The notes under the pieces were generated by a model that was not told the origin of the DNA, searched no databases, and saw only the letters and a list, made by a program, of their open reading frames with translations. From contig NZ_AP022829.1 in assembly GCF_011405655.1 (NCBI RefSeq), forward strand, positions 1,225,001-1,289,000: DNA of 64,000 nt, in the 5' to 3' direction. Both the position numbers and the translations under genes were made by a program. Source of the DNA: Adlercreutzia hattorii (GTDB lineage: Bacteria; Actinomycetota; Coriobacteriia; Coriobacteriales; Eggerthellaceae). Below are positions 2,601 to 50,954 of this stretch, in pieces (positions within the stretch are counted from its first letter, which is position 1; the number at the start of each line of letters is the position of its first letter).

Positions 2601-4152
2601 CTTGACCTTCAACCCCCGGACGCTGTGGTTCGATCCGGGCGATTTGGATATAGAGAAAGACATGCCCGTGGTGGTGCGTACCGCCCGGGGCACCGAGTTC
2701 GGCATCGCCGCGAGCGAGGTTATCGAGGTGTCCGAGGAGCAGGTGCGCGCGCTGAAGAGCGCCTTGCGCCCCGTGGAGCGCATCGCGACCGAGGAGGACA
2801 TCGAGCAGGCGGCCGAGATGGAGCGCGCTTCCGCCGAGGCCCTGCCGGTGTTCAAGGAGATGGCCCGGGAGTACCACGAGGACATGCACCCGGTGTCCGT
2901 GGAGTTTCTGCTCGACGGCGACAAGGCTGTCTTCTACTTCGAGGCCGAGGAGCGCATCGACTTCCGCGAGCTGGTGCGCAAGCTGGCGGCCCGCTTCCAC
3001 GTGCGCATCGACATGCGTCAGATCGGCGTGCGCGACGAGGCCCGCATGGTGGGCGGCATCGGGCACTGCGGCCAGGAGCTGTGCTGCAAGCGACTCGGCG
3101 GCGAGTTCTGCCCCGTGTCCATCCGCATGGCCAAGGAGCAGGGGCTCTCGCTGAACCCCCAGAAGATCTCGGGGCTGTGCGGGCGCCTCATGTGCTGTCT
3201 GCGCTACGAGTTCGATGCCTACAAGGACTTCAAGAGCCGCGCTCCCAAGTTGAACGCCACGGTGCAGACGCCGGCCGGGCCTGCCAAGGTGGTCGATCAC
3301 GACGTGCCGCGGGAGATCGTGTCGCTGAAGGTGGAGGGGGAAAAGCCCGTGAAGGTGCCCCTGTCCGACTTCGATTCGGCGCCCGAGGGTGCTACGCGGC
3401 CCAATGCCGTGGGGGAGGAGGCCTGGGAAGAGGCGACGAGCGATCGCGGGCTCATCGGCGGCGAGGCGCTCATCTTCTCGACGAGCCAGTTCACCGGGGC
3501 CGATAAGCTGGCCGAGGGCGCCAAGGTGCGCCATACCGGCGGATCGCGCAAGGGATCGGGCGAGGCGGGGCGCTCGCGCCGCGGCGGCTCCGAGGGCCGC
3601 GGGCGCGGCGGCTCGCGCTCGGCGGGGACGCAGGCGGCGTCTCCGGCACCGGCCGCCCCGCCCCGCAAGCGCCGCCGCTCCACGAAGCTGTCGGCGGCCG
3701 ACGACGGGCGCGGTTTGGAGCGCGTGTCCACCTCCCGCGAGGAGGGCGCGCGCGGCGAGGGGGCCGCATCGCCGAAGCCGCGCCGTCAGCGCTCCGGGAC
3801 GGCCTCGCGGCCCAAGGACGGCGCGCGCCCCAAGGACGGCGGCCGCAACCAGAGCGGCCAGGGCAATCAGGGCGGCCAGGGGAAAGCGCAAAGGGCCAAG
3901 GGCTCCCAGGGCCGCTCTCGCTCCGGCCAGGGCGACGGCAAGCCCAAGGGCGCCTCGCCGCGGCCGGGCCAGAAGTCCTCGGGGCTGCGGGCCGAGCAGG
4001 GCGGCGCGTCCCGCAGCGACGGGGCTAAGGCGGACACGGGCGCTTCCAAGCCTCGGCGCCGGCGCCGCTCCCGCAAGCCCAAGGCCGACGGCGGCTCGGG
4101 TGCGGGCTCGGGCCCGCAGAGCGGCAACGGTGGCAACGGCACCGGAAACTAG
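2578..4152 (+). CDS. PSP1/RicT (YaaT) family protein with a 220-residue basic low-complexity tail
   Basis: RicT is part of the RicAFT Fe-S complex that modulates RNase Y activity and development in Bacillus (family knowledge). The PSP1 core occupies about residues 1-270 with two conserved Cys clusters, HCGQELCC (Cys164, 169, 170) and LCGRLMCC (Cys201, 206, 207), the expected Fe-S ligands. From about residue 300 to the end (524) the protein is Arg/Gly/Ser/Lys-rich and probably disordered, with NQSGQ/GQG-type repeats like those in Rho at 37872. Family members are usually about 270 residues. ATG at 2578 is preferred over TTG at 2572 because AGAGAGG sits at proper distance; the start lies inside holB, so translation is probably coupled. 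Confidence 0.9.
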   Translation: MVRVAPINLTFNPRTLWFDPGDLDIEKDMPVVVRTARGTEFGIAASEVIEVSEEQVRALKSALRPVERIATEEDIEQAAEMERASAEALPVFKEMAREYHEDMHPVSVEFLLDGDKAVFYFEAEERIDFRELVRKLAARFHVRIDMRQIGVRDEARMVGGIGHCGQELCCKRLGGEFCPVSIRMAKEQGLSLNPQKISGLCGRLMCCLRYEFDAYKDFKSRAPKLNATVQTPAGPAKVVDHDVPREIVSLKVEGEKPVKVPLSDFDSAPEGATRPNAVGEEAWEEATSDRGLIGGEALIFSTSQFTGADKLAEGAKVRHTGGSRKGSGEAGRSRRGGSEGRGRGGSRSAGTQAASPAPAAPPRKRRRSTKLSAADDGRGLERVSTSREEGARGEGAASPKPRRQRSGTASRPKDGARPKDGGRNQSGQGNQGGQGKAQRAKGSQGRSRSGQGDGKPKGASPRPGQKSSGLRAEQGGASRSDGAKADTGASKPRRRRRSRKPKADGGSGAGSGPQSGNGGNGTGN

Positions 4153-6564: not shown

Positions 6565-7568
6565 TGGCGAAGTCGTACGCCTACGTGGGAGCCCCGTCGT
6601 TCATCGGGGCCGTGGAGGGACGCCTGGCTGACGCCGGCTTCTCCCGAGCCTCCGATGTCGCCTCGGCGGACATCGTGGTGACGTTTACCACCTCCGGCTC
6701 GGCGCTGGAGGACTTGTACTTCGGCGACGAGGGGCTCGTCACGACGGCGGCCCCGGGCTCCACGCTGGTCGATCTGTCGGCCGCCACGCCGAACTTCGCC
6801 CGCGAGATCAACGCCGTGGCGACGGTGAACGACCTGATCATGGTGGAGGCACCGGCGACGGTACGCTCGCTTGTGGCCGCCGATGCATTCGCCCGCGAGA
6901 ACCTTCTGGGGCCGGTGGCCACCGAAGCCGAGCTGACCGACGATGTCCGCCGGCTTCTGGACGCCATCTTCGGAGAAGTGGTGGAAGTGGGGGCACCGGG
7001 CCGCGCGCAGCTTCTGCGCAATACCCACACGCTGCCCTTGGCCGCCGATCTGGTGAGCGCCATCGAGGCCGTGGCCTTGGACGATGCCTCGGCCCGTTCG
7101 GTGGGAGCGCTGGACGCCGACCAGATTCCGCTGTTCAGCCCCGTCTCCGCCGATCCTGTGGTACAGGCCGTGCGCCAGCAGCGCTACACCGGCGACTACA
7201 CGGCCGAGATGCTCCTGGCCGAGCTGTCCGCGGCGCTCATGGCCGCCGACGACGCCGAGGTGATTTTGCCCGGAGTGGAGGCGACCATGCACTTGCTGGA
7301 GCTTCTGGTGGTCATCGGAGGCGCCGATATGGCGCCGGCGGCGCTGTCTCTGGTGTATCAGGACGAGGCGGCCGGAGCCCGGGCCGGGCTCGACTGGACG
7401 CGCGCCGAGCAGGCCTATGGGCACCCTGCCTCCGAGGAGGACGAGGACTGGAGCGCCTACGACGACGAGGACGGTTGCGGCCACGACCACTTCCGCGAGG
7501 ATCACGACTACGACGACTATGACGACTTCGCTCCCTATAACGACGACTTCGACTACTCGAACAACTAG
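6564..7568 (+). CDS. 6-phosphogluconate/3-hydroxyisobutyrate dehydrogenase-like protein with Asp-rich tail
   Basis: Resembles NAD(P)-dependent beta-hydroxyacid dehydrogenases: residues 1-165 contain SADIVVTFTTSGSALEDLYF, GSTLVDLSAATPNFAREI and MVEAPATV at the positions of the family motifs, followed by a helical second domain. The usual dinucleotide turn GxGxxG is replaced by VGAPSFIGA, and the catalytic Lys region is not obvious, so activity is uncertain. The last 45 residues are extremely acidic (runs such as DYDDYDDFAPYNDDFDY). The substrate is unknown. The ATG overlaps the stop of the upstream degV gene, implying translational coupling. Confidence 0.7.
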   Translation: MAKSYAYVGAPSFIGAVEGRLADAGFSRASDVASADIVVTFTTSGSALEDLYFGDEGLVTTAAPGSTLVDLSAATPNFAREINAVATVNDLIMVEAPATVRSLVAADAFARENLLGPVATEAELTDDVRRLLDAIFGEVVEVGAPGRAQLLRNTHTLPLAADLVSAIEAVALDDASARSVGALDADQIPLFSPVSADPVVQAVRQQRYTGDYTAEMLLAELSAALMAADDAEVILPGVEATMHLLELLVVIGGADMAPAALSLVYQDEAAGARAGLDWTRAEQAYGHPASEEDEDWSAYDDEDGCGHDHFREDHDYDDYDDFAPYNDDFDYSNN

Positions 7569-7598
7569 TTGTGACTCGCCGGAATCAGAGCTGCGCGA

Positions 7599-7684
7599 TA
7601 CCTTGATTCGCTCAGACAGTCCTCGCTCGGCGGAAATGCCCACAGGGCATTTCCGTTCGCTACGGAACTCGCTCGGTCAAGGCA
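7599..7684. repeat. Modular hairpin repeat, copy 1
   Basis: Two conserved boxes, 7599-7627 and 7663-7684, flank a variable hairpin. The same 29-base and 22-base boxes occur, inverted, at 31956-31984 and 31875-31896 between hisA and hisF with no mismatch seen by eye, while the middle sequence is unrelated. Here the middle is a perfect 11-bp stem (7631-7641 with 7645-7655, loop ACA). The element occupies most of the gap between the dehydrogenase-like gene and the radical SAM gene. No open frame or transposase accompanies it, so a REP/MITE-like or structured RNA element is inferred. Confidence 0.75.
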
Positions 7685-8643
7685 TCCCGCATCCCCTCTA
7701 CGCGTTGCCGTTGTCGTGCGAGCTGTGCCCCCGGAGGTGTGGCGTTGATCGGGCGGCGGGGGAGCGCGGGGTTTGCGGAGCTGCGGGCGAGGTGCTCGTG
7801 GCCCGGGCGGCGCTGCACTTCTGGGAGGAGCCGCCGATCTCCGGCGAGGACGGCAGCGGCACCATCTTCTTCTCCGGCTGCCCTCTGCGTTGTGTTTATT
7901 GCCAGAACGCCTCTATCGCTCTGGGCGAGGCGGCCCGGGCAATCACTGTCGAGCGCTTGGCCGCCATCATGGGCGAGCTTGAGGCGGCCGGGGCGCTGAA
8001 CATCAACTGCGTGACGCCGACGCACTTCGCGCCGCAGATCCGCGCGGCGGTTGCCTTGGCGCGCGAGCAGGGCATGGCGCTGCCGGTGTTGTGGAACACG
8101 GGCGGCTACGAGACCGTGGAGGCGGTGCGCGGCAACGTCGGCTTCGTGGACGCCTACCTCACCGACTTCAAGTACGCCGATGCGGCGCTGGCGGCTCGCT
8201 ACTCCCATGCTGCCGACTACCCCGAGGTGGCCCTCGCGGCGCTTCAGACCATGGTAGAGGTCGTTGGCGCCCCGTGCTATGACGAGTTCCGCGGCCAGGA
8301 GCGCCTCGTCTCCGGCGTGGTGGTGCGCCATCTCATGCTGCCCGGGGCCCTGGATAACTCCAAGGCCGTGGTGCGGCTTCTGCACGAGCGCTTCGGGAGC
8401 GATGTCCGGCTCTCGCTCATGAACCAGTACACGCCGGTGATCGCTCAGGCCGCTGCAGCCGGCGACAGGCGGGCGGCCGCGGCCCTGGCGGCGAGTCCCG
8501 AGCTTGCGACCACGGTACCCGATTCCGAGTACGAGCAGCTGCTCGATTTCGCCGATGCGCTGGGAGTGGAGGACTACTTCTGGCAAGAAGGGGGAGCCGC
8601 TGAGGAGAGCTTCATCCCGGCCTTCGACTTCACGGGCGTGTAG
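7636..8643 (+). CDS. PflX-like radical SAM protein (COG1313 type)
   Basis: Radical SAM enzyme related to pyruvate formate-lyase activators of the PflX group; its substrate is unknown. The N-terminal Cys cluster LSCELCPRRCGVDR is followed by FFSGCPLRCVYCQN, where CPLRCVYC is the CxxxCxxC motif that holds the SAM-binding 4Fe-4S cluster. The protein then runs as a partial TIM barrel with VLWNTGGYET and VDAYLTDFKYAD. The first in-frame ATG (7636) lies inside the stem of the hairpin repeat; internal TTG codons near 7708 are alternatives with no better ribosome site. The exact start is therefore uncertain. It follows a gene with no obvious functional link. Confidence 0.85.
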   Translation: MPTGHFRSLRNSLGQGIPHPLYALPLSCELCPRRCGVDRAAGERGVCGAAGEVLVARAALHFWEEPPISGEDGSGTIFFSGCPLRCVYCQNASIALGEAARAITVERLAAIMGELEAAGALNINCVTPTHFAPQIRAAVALAREQGMALPVLWNTGGYETVEAVRGNVGFVDAYLTDFKYADAALAARYSHAADYPEVALAALQTMVEVVGAPCYDEFRGQERLVSGVVVRHLMLPGALDNSKAVVRLLHERFGSDVRLSLMNQYTPVIAQAAAAGDRRAAAALAASPELATTVPDSEYEQLLDFADALGVEDYFWQEGGAAEESFIPAFDFTGV

Positions 8644-31049: not shown

Positions 31050-31841
31050 ATGTACCTTCTTCCTGCCATCGATCTTTTAGACGGGCGCGCGGTGCGCTTG
31101 GCCAAAGGAGACTACCACGCCGTCACCGTGTACAACGACGACCCGGCGTATCAGGCCCAGCTGTTTGAGGAGGCCGGTGCGACGTGGCTTCATGTGGTCG
31201 ATCTGGATGGCGCGAAGTCCGGCAATCCCGACAACTTGGAAGTGGTGCGCGCGATTTTGGCGCGCACGAGCCTGAAGGTGGAGGTAGGCGGCGGCGTGCG
31301 CTCCCTGGAAGCGGCCGACCGTCTGCTGGATGCTGGCGCGACCCGCGTCATCCTAGGCACCGCACTTGTGCGCGATCCTGATTTCGCCCAGGCGGCCATG
31401 GAGAAGTTCGGCCCCGATGCCCTGGTTGCCGGCATCGACGCGAAGGCCGGCGAAGCCGCTGTGGCCGGCTGGACTGAAGGATCGGGCGTGGCCGCCGCCG
31501 ACCTGGCCCGCCGCATGGCGGCGCTGGGATACGAGCACCTCGTCTACACCGACATCGCCCGCGACGGCATGCAGACCGGCGTGGAGAACGAGGCCTACGC
31601 GAAGATGGCCGCCGCCTTTGGCAATCCGGTCATCGTTTCCGGCGGCATCGCCACCGCAGCTGACATCCGGGCGCTGGCCCCCATCGCCGACGCCGTGGAA
31701 GGCGTCATTACCGGTCGGGCCATCTACGAGGGCACTCTTACCGTGGCCGACGGCGTTGCGGCGTGCGACGGCACCTTCCAGCTGTCCGACCAGCTGGAAG
31801 AGGAGGAGCGTCCCCTGACCATCGAAGAGCTGGAAAGCTAG
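31050..31841 (+). CDS. hisA: ProFAR isomerase HisA
   Basis: Phosphoribosylformimino-AICAR-P isomerase, a (beta/alpha)8 barrel. LPAIDLLDGRAVRLAKGDY at the N-terminus holds the catalytic Asp, VEVGGGVRSLEAADRLLDAGATRVILGT and VSGGIATAADIRAL are phosphate-binding loops, and VYTDIARDGMQTGVE carries the second Asp. At 263 residues it has a C-terminal extension of about 20 residues rich in Glu. In some actinobacteria this enzyme also does the TrpF reaction (PriA); that cannot be decided here. Confidence 0.93.
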   Translation: MYLLPAIDLLDGRAVRLAKGDYHAVTVYNDDPAYQAQLFEEAGATWLHVVDLDGAKSGNPDNLEVVRAILARTSLKVEVGGGVRSLEAADRLLDAGATRVILGTALVRDPDFAQAAMEKFGPDALVAGIDAKAGEAAVAGWTEGSGVAAADLARRMAALGYEHLVYTDIARDGMQTGVENEAYAKMAAAFGNPVIVSGGIATAADIRALAPIADAVEGVITGRAIYEGTLTVADGVAACDGTFQLSDQLEEEERPLTIEELES

Positions 31842-31858
31842 CAAACAAGGAAGAGCAG

Positions 31859-32000
31859 CCCGGGCGCCGCCGGGTGCCTTGACCGAGCGAGTTCCGCAGA
31901 TGGTGTCGAAGGCCAAAAGGGAGGGGGAGCGGTTGGCCCTGACGCCTTCGATACCAGCGAGGACTGTCTGAGCGAATCAAGGTACCCGGCGGCGCCCGGG
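31859..32000. repeat. Modular hairpin repeat, copy 2, between hisA and hisF
   Basis: Three nested features: an outer perfect 17-bp stem (31859-31875 with 31984-32000), the two boxes shared with copy 1 (31875-31896 and 31956-31984), and an inner 13-bp stem with one mismatch (TGGTGTCGAAGGC with GCCTTCGATACCA). It interrupts an otherwise tight operon with a 178-base gap. As RNA it would form a long rod that may affect hisF expression or mRNA stability (inference). Confidence 0.8.
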
Positions 32001-32019
32001 CGGACGGGTTGAAGAGAGT

Positions 32020-32784
32020 ATGTTAACAAAGAGAGTAATCCCCTGCCTGGACGTAAAGGACGGCCGCGTCGTGAAGGGCGTGAATTTCGTGGGCCTGCGC
32101 GATGCGGGGGACCCCATCGAGCTGGCCCGCGCCTACGACGAGCAAAAGGCCGACGAGGTCATCTTCCTGGACATCACCGCCACGAGCGACGATCGCGCCA
32201 CCACGGTGGAGCTCGCGAGTCACGCTTCGGCCGAGCTGCATCTGCCCTATTGCGTGGGCGGCGGCTTCCGCAGCGTGGCCGACATCCGCAAGATGATCGC
32301 CGCCGGCGCCGACAAGGTGTCGGTGAACTCGGCAGCCGTGGCGAACCCCCAGCTCATCACCGATGCAGCTCGGGCCTTCGGCACGCAGGCGATCCTCTGC
32401 GCCATCGACGCGAAAGCGGTGCCCGGCAATCCCAACAAGTGGGAGGTCTACGTGGCCGGCGGTCGCAAGAACACCCATATCGACGCCATCGAATGGGCCC
32501 GCGAGGCGACTCGGCGCGGAGCGGGGGAGATCCTGCTCACCTCCATGGACCGCGACGGCAGCCGCGACGGCTTCGACTGCCACCTGACGCGCTCCGTGGC
32601 CCGGGCCGTGGACATCCCCGTCATCGCCAGCGGCGGCGTGGGCAAGCTCGAGCACTTCGCCGAGGGCATCATCGAGGGCGAGGCCGACGCCGTGCTCGCC
32701 GCCAGCGTCTTCCATTTCGGCGAGCTTACCGTGCGCCAGGTAAAAGAATCCATGCGCGCCGCCGGCATCCCGGTACGGCTTTAG
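32020..32784 (+). CDS. hisF: Imidazole glycerol phosphate synthase, cyclase subunit
   Basis: Forms IGP and AICAR with ammonia from HisH. The 254-residue barrel begins [31 protein letters not shown] with the catalytic Asp, continues [17 protein letters not shown], and has [46 protein letters not shown] with the second Asp, and [15 protein letters not shown]. It is the last gene before the toxin-antitoxin island; hisI lies 1.6 kb further on. Confidence 0.96.
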
Positions 32785-50888: not shown

Positions 50889-50938
50889 GGCTTGGTCGGA
50901 AACCAAGCCGCATTCGGCCCCTTGGTCGGAAACCAAGG
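50889..50938 (+). promoter_or_regulatory. Twin-hairpin leader of rpmE (candidate L31 ribosomal leader)
   Basis: Hairpin 1: GGCTTGGT/ACCAAGCC (50889-50896 with 50902-50909). Hairpin 2: CCTTGGT/ACCAAGG (50920-50926 with 50932-50938). Both carry the loop CGGAA and stand 17 bases before the rpmE start. L31 leaders are known in several phyla, and I recall a coriobacterial class; whether this is that class needs a covariance-model match. Confidence 0.7.
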
Positions 50939-50954
50939 AAGTTAGGAGAACCCA

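Follow-up and report, generated by a model that had tools for sequence, protein, structure and literature searches.

The systems closest to the repeat described here are the Rickettsia palindromic elements (RPE) and the other protein-coding palindromes (Wolbachia, Methanocaldococcus). These are palindromes of ~150 bp that lie between genes and also in frame within unrelated housekeeping genes, where they give a recurrent peptide in tolerant regions (PMC10969869, PMC2996958). The PARCEL palindromic amphipathic coding repeats are arranged in tandem, form protein domains and are spread across distant microbes (PMC2996958). REP and REPIN repeats are defined by a hairpin with GTAG or CGTC as a tag at its foot (PMC3733652).

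The repeat of Adlercreutzia hattorii resembles RPE in that it is a ~150-bp palindrome, intergenic as well as in frame in unrelated genes, with a recurrent peptide, a likeness that is one of description. It differs in its Actinomycetota host, in the swapping of modules in place, and in the occurrence of its loop in other phyla, and it may also differ in having a conserved loop with exchangeable stems. Like the REP, BIME and REPIN repeats that go with RAYT, it is a short dispersed intergenic palindrome with a strand-specific hairpin, but it is longer, is also found in genes, has no GTAG or CGTC tag, and is abundant in congeners that have no RAYT. It shares with the MITEs (ERIC, Correia/NEMIS, RUP) a small non-autonomous form, dozens of copies and possible fusion to open reading frames, yet it is conserved in the middle loop rather than in terminal repeats, and neither a duplication nor a partner transposon has been recognized. 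PARCEL is similar as palindromic DNA read as protein in distant microbes, whereas the Adlercreutzia repeat is found as single insertions that are mostly intergenic.

We consider it probable (about 0.6) that this is a genus-amplified, non-autonomous and presumably mobilized selfish palindromic repeat of the protein-coding-palindrome type. It appears to extend protein-invading palindromes to gut Actinomycetota; they have so far been described mainly from intracellular Rickettsiales.

Two copies of a long hairpin

The window is the complete stretch of 64,000 nucleotides that was analyzed (G000:C1:1225001-1289000), taken from a genome (G000) that is a single contig of 2.9 Mb. A first-pass annotation had pointed to two identical boxes in inverted orientation at 7.6 and 31.9 kb, separated by unrelated sequences that are each self-complementary. 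Both observations are borne out. There are zero mismatches between the boxes at 7599-7684 (minus strand) and those at 31875-31984, the common sequences being TGCCTTGACCGAGCGAGTTCCG (22 nt) and GCGAGGACTGTCTGAGCGAATCAAGGTA, and the centers are of 35 nt (element 1) and 59 nt (element 2). The 3' box has two matches in the window, compared with none expected from shuffled sequences. Relative to dinucleotide shuffles the folds have z values of -4.5 for element 1 and -9.9 for element 2. The annotation had missed a 20-bp outer stem. As this stem encloses the boxes, each box is one strand of the same internal loop, within a single long hairpin.

Element 1 lies on the minus strand. Its approximate full extent, judged from the per-position information profile of 74 copies, is 7564..7718, with conserved ends CTCAAC..../....CAAC. 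The hairpin core at 7581..7701 scores 126.8 bits (E 8e-27) with our covariance model R1, this copy being in the training set. Pair counts over the 74 copies place the 5' arm of the outer stem at 7677..7696 and the 3' arm at 7587..7606. Between the arms are conserved strand A (CCGAGCGAGTTCCGTAG, 7660..7676), assigned by sequence match and copy alignment, the exchangeable center of the short type (7625..7659), for which pair counts and folding give an 11-bp stem and a TGT loop, and conserved strand B (GAGGACTGTCTGAGCGAA, 7607..7624), assigned by box search and copy alignment.

Element 2 lies on the plus strand, and with its surroundings makes up the entire gap (31842..32019) between hisA (stop at 31841) and hisF (start at 32020). 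Its hairpin core (31858..32002) is outside the training set and scores 84.1 bits (E 5e-17) with R1. The 5' arm of the outer stem at 31863..31882 extends outward to 31858 according to pair counts and folding, and pair counts put the 3' arm at 31977..31996. By the same means as for element 1, strand A (CCGAGCGAGTTCCGCAG) is found at 31883..31899 and strand B (GAGGACTGTCTGAGCGAA) at 31959..31976; the center at 31900..31958 is of the long type, ATGGTGTCGAAGGC...GCCTTCGATACCA. The orthologous hisA-hisF gap of the congener G001 contains a copy with other stems and a short center (L002/L266).

No Rfam 15 family matched the elements under strict or permissive conditions in the window and nine loci searched. 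Elsewhere in the window (50919-50948) there is an L31-Coriobacteria ribosomal protein leader that is barely over the Rfam gathering score.

A constant internal loop within variable stems

We aligned 74 copies from G000, G001 and G004. Conservation begins about 45 nt ahead of strand A (AGCGAG) and continues to about 60 nt past the start of strand B (GAGGACTG), with little or none outside. The common architecture is an outer stem of ~20 bp, an asymmetric internal loop formed by strands A and B, and then the exchangeable inner stem. Strand A has the form CCGAGCGAGTTCCGCAG or CCAAGCGAGTTCCGCAG, and strand B is GAGGACTGTYTGAGCGA followed by A or C. These loop strands of about 17-20 nt are nearly letter-for-letter constant among copies and across phyla. 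In the stems the sequence varies while the pairing does not. Pairing is possible in 96.5% of cells, compared with 74.4% in shuffled alignments and 37-45% when the partners are slid. Double changes number 325 cells against 88 in the control, and are seen in 25 of 27 pairs.

Two positions of the outer stem have a character of their own: 64 of the 74 copies have a G.U pair at position 6, and 35 have an A.G mismatch at position 15. Elsewhere in the outer stem there are 53 G.U against 13 A.C juxtapositions (p 7e-7). This excess of G.U over A.C in the stems indicates that folding is a property of the strand running from A to B, whether as RNA or as single-stranded DNA. Together the conserved loop and the strand asymmetry suggest that the element is recognized as a folded single strand. 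Constraint on the loop far exceeds that on the ends, a pattern not usual in an ordinary MITE, which might reflect a function for the host. The two-strand loop is a defined, testable candidate for a recognition site, and the conserved part (loop) can be told apart from the variable part (both stems). We have considered it as a kink-turn-like candidate, with tandem G.A pairs beside a bulge.

A number of copies depart from this plan. Three in G001 (L268, L269, L279) have another outer variant, CGCGCAGTTCCGCAG...GAGGACTGTCTGAGCA, in which the internal loop is reduced. Stand-alone 5' half-elements that end exactly at TTCCGCAG occur in L165 (about 2800-3100, minus strand) and L167 (8320-8400). The 5' half-elements are in tandem in a 4Fe-4S gene and single in trmD, adjoining full copies. 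Near position 1500 of L015 there is a strand B without strand A, and other long inverted repeats (of the GGGGCTGACCTTGGTCAGCCC type) take the place of the 5' half.

Distribution within the genus

It would have been a simple explanation of the two window copies that they are the only ones, derived by a single duplication. This is not the case, as the genome has 32 copies of the 3' box (≤2 mismatches; 0 in the reversed control) and 47 matches to R1, a model trained on 53 short-center copies from three species. In eight congeners there are 7-48 copies of the box per genome at the same threshold, and 23-77 matches to the model in each. The sampled genomes of other Eggerthellaceae genera have up to 21 model matches, and other families of the order have a few. 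The family is a dispersed, many-copy palindromic repeat within the range of about 100-150 bp, roughly 150 bases long as a rule, that lies mostly between genes and sometimes inside essential genes.

No match was found that would indicate carriage by plasmids, phages or viral contigs. The box sequences were not found in the literature searched, and a literature search on Eggerthella and palindromic repeats gave nothing relevant. An identity with sRNA-Xcc1 was dropped; its founding paper reports a narrow distribution, and there is no Rfam match.

Modules are exchanged at fixed sites

The outer part occurs in two variants, GACCG...AATC and CACCA...ACTG, and the center in two types, short (35-37 nt) and long (58-59 nt); all four combinations are present. 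Among the genomes searched, the long center is confined to this species, and there to elements. G000 and G001 have about half of the sites in common, with the orientation kept and the contents differing. At L164/L254 the flanks are 93/88% identical and the outer stem is nearly unchanged, with the center replaced. The outer variant has been exchanged at L168/L259, and both the outer variant and the center at L166/L264; L014/L261 shows almost no change. Since position and orientation are kept while the modules differ, the position has been inherited and the content overwritten. With as many as about half of the sites in common between species, jumping is not frequent. The combinations of modules and the swaps at orthologous sites support the earlier proposal of a mobile or gene-converted family that has conserved ends and exchangeable self-complementary centers. 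In an Omnitrophota genome one element lies within the center of another, in the opposite orientation, and this shows one route by which a center can be acquired.

Position relative to genes

We examined the gene context of the copies using a codon model seeded with known genes. Between co-directional genes 27 copies are in the sense orientation and 24 antisense, and a further 15 lie between divergent or convergent genes. The remaining eight are within genes, all of them sense and all in one open frame. They occupy five gene sites. Two are in rsmA (PF00398) and trmD (PF01746), two others in a radical-SAM/DUF512 and a 4Fe-4S gene, and the fifth in a gene that has no match in Pfam, so that unrelated genes carry in-frame insertions with the frame kept. 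This frame is not the one most often open. Over the 74 copies two antisense frames are open in 64 and 60, and the frame used in genes in 45. By our own arithmetic, the probability of all five sites using that frame would be about 4 in 10,000 if insertion just tracked open frames, for what are few sites (five).

A recurrent same-frame peptide, DRASSAA...SEDCLSES, is present in most in-gene copies, and in the B variant its second half is in another frame (RGLSERL). In-gene copies would be translated as a peptide within the host protein. The lengths of the in-gene centers are 35, 36 or 59, never 37. The two in-gene B-variant copies of G000 have a 36-nt center, with one extra base that avoids TGA. 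That length is found in 1 of 66 copies outside genes, a weak difference (p 0.03) with eight in-gene copies that are not all independent. The 37-nt center, which leads to a stop, is absent from the eight in-gene copies and present in 20 of the 66 others (p 0.10, small numbers).

Orthologous sites are variously filled, scarred, decayed and empty, so the process can be ordered in time. In trmD the insertion is at one length-variable segment. It is present there in G012 and in eight genomes of the genus, and absent in G006 and several more distant relatives. The rsmA site is filled in G000 and G006, has a decayed in-frame remnant (L213) in G007, and is without the hairpin in G001, G002, G004 and G005. 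In the spacer at the cupin-gene site there is an element in G000, none in G005, and flank remnants without a hairpin in G001 and G004. No clear target-site duplication was seen, and the empty sites are too diverged for one to be read. The cupin-gene spacer of G002 (L329) contains another long hairpin, GTTCCGACAGGCACCTGGC...GCCAGGCACCTGTCGGAAC, perhaps a second palindromic family at the same kind of site.

Origin of the repeat

For the selfish repeat that we favor, the following course may be envisaged. Copies would enter mostly intergenic spacers, and occasionally the variable loops of proteins. Within genes only in-frame insertions would survive, then to be read as peptide. Later, other members of the family would overwrite copies in place, or another copy would invade their centers; the outcomes are seen at the orthologous sites, and the means may be gene conversion or nested insertion. 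What is recognized would be one strand in its hairpin form, either RNA or single-stranded DNA, with the conserved internal loop as the recognition site of a putative host or helper enzyme.

It had been suggested that the repeat is an RNA with fixed protein-binding ends. This may still be so: the stems tolerate G.U far more than A.C, which points to one folding strand, but intergenic copies are found in both orientations relative to genes. In a fuller form, the repeat would be a functional structured RNA under host selection, such as a hairpin in operon mRNAs that serves in processing or protein binding, with a loop that binds a conserved RNA-binding protein or nuclease. Such an RNA would account for the strong RNA-type covariation, the excess of G.U over A.C together with the near-fixed G.U (64/74) and the frequent A.G (35/74) at set positions of the outer stem, the recurrence of the loop in other phyla, and the many sites common to several species. 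However, it would not be expected to be sense and antisense about equally (27 and 24) between co-directional genes, to lie between divergent and convergent genes, to have its contents exchanged in place, to be found within coding sequence, or to differ more than threefold in copy number between species. We therefore regard it as rather unlikely; both orientations, tolerance of one frame within genes, variable copy number, scars and swaps all fit better with a selfish repeat. The paired changes in the stems might alternatively be the mutational product of quasipalindrome correction, by template switching between the arms, and not of selection, the repeat being a passive relic and the loop merely old. 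Arm-templated correction is an established mechanism, which would give the very fast, near-perfect co-evolution of the arms at the orthologous L002/L266, and it could speed the paired stem changes. Yet it leaves unexplained the ~17-20-nt loop strands kept among copies and phyla, the G.U over A.C asymmetry and the swaps of whole modules, and as a complete account it is improbable.

Removal of the in-gene copies from mRNA, or their skipping by the ribosome, would make the frame incidental, and long stable hairpins within essential genes such as trmD might seem to call for an intron-like or bypass element. Against this, every in-gene copy is open in frame with a compatible length (35, 36 or 59, never 37), and the decayed remnant L213 is still in frame, so that we give this explanation very little weight. 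A REP/REPIN-type element moved by a RAYT tyrosine transposase is largely refuted and has next to no probability. The repeat is palindromic and mostly intergenic, with a strand-specific hairpin, as such an element would be. Nevertheless the helper transposase of REP-associated type that the first-pass annotation had envisaged is not supported. The six Y1 genes of G000 are multi-copy and IS200-like, with no boxes nearby, and no Y1 gene was found in G001 and G004, which have 58 and 45 model matches. No RAYT-type transposase or other helper enzyme for the repeat was found, the conserved strands have neither a GTAG nor a CGTC tag (compare PMC3733652), and none of the retrieved loci contains a gene-bearing version of the repeat. 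We have rejected RAYT or Y1 transposases as the helper on these grounds. Of the six Y1 genes of G000 (L155/L156 and L157-L160), none of them related to the repeat, two are arranged in tandem at a distance of 786 bp.

The internal loop in other phyla

Among the matches listed, MAGs of several phyla have an exact strand B and, within 5-117 nt of it, a strand A that is exact or nearly so. The strand order is the same in Lachnospiraceae and Omnitrophota MAGs, and opposite in Campylobacteraceae, Gammaproteobacteria, Parcubacteria and Atopobiaceae MAGs. With the order reversed, the inner stem of Adlercreutzia becomes the outer stem of the permuted forms. As a control for chance, strand A (≤2 mismatches) occurs in about 2% of random 400-nt windows. 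R1 recognizes the same-order copies of Omnitrophota (E 2e-14) and Lachnospiraceae (E 2e-7), but not the permuted ones. Several of these genomes have many box copies, with 21 in G060 and 44 in G063. The box is a rarity in Pseudomonadota at large (2 genomes among 398 sampled), so that its occurrence across phyla is patchy. The organism labels of these MAGs need the usual caution, although stems and base composition unlike those of Adlercreutzia argue against simple contamination. In odd phyla among the matches listed, L075 and L110 have a single box with no strand A nearby, and lone matches of this type may be due to chance.

We suggest, tentatively and as a less likely reading, that the loop GAGGACTGTYTGAGCGA / GCGAGTTCCGCAG is a nucleic-acid module shared across phyla, either the recognition fold of a widespread enzyme or a catalytic RNA. 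It would be built in either strand order into the hairpins of repeats in Actinomycetota, Bacillota, Omnitrophota, Campylobacterota, Pseudomonadota and Parcubacteria, which would spread, nest and overwrite through the loop without a dedicated transposase. The presence of the same loop in distant phyla makes the way in which such palindromes move an experimentally accessible question.

In Campylobacteraceae and Gammaproteobacteria (L078, L081, L079, L093, L242) the permuted loop belongs to a larger repeat, which has a similar hairpin, CTTTCTTT...AAAGAAAG, at its end as well, and the two phyla appear to share one composite repeat. In G063 (Porticoccaceae; L122, L230, L241, L248) the box copies lie within a larger multi-stem repeat with flanks CCGACAGGGGAGGTTTGTCC. 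Many of the 44 box copies are at contig ends, and this high-copy repeat seems to break the assembly.
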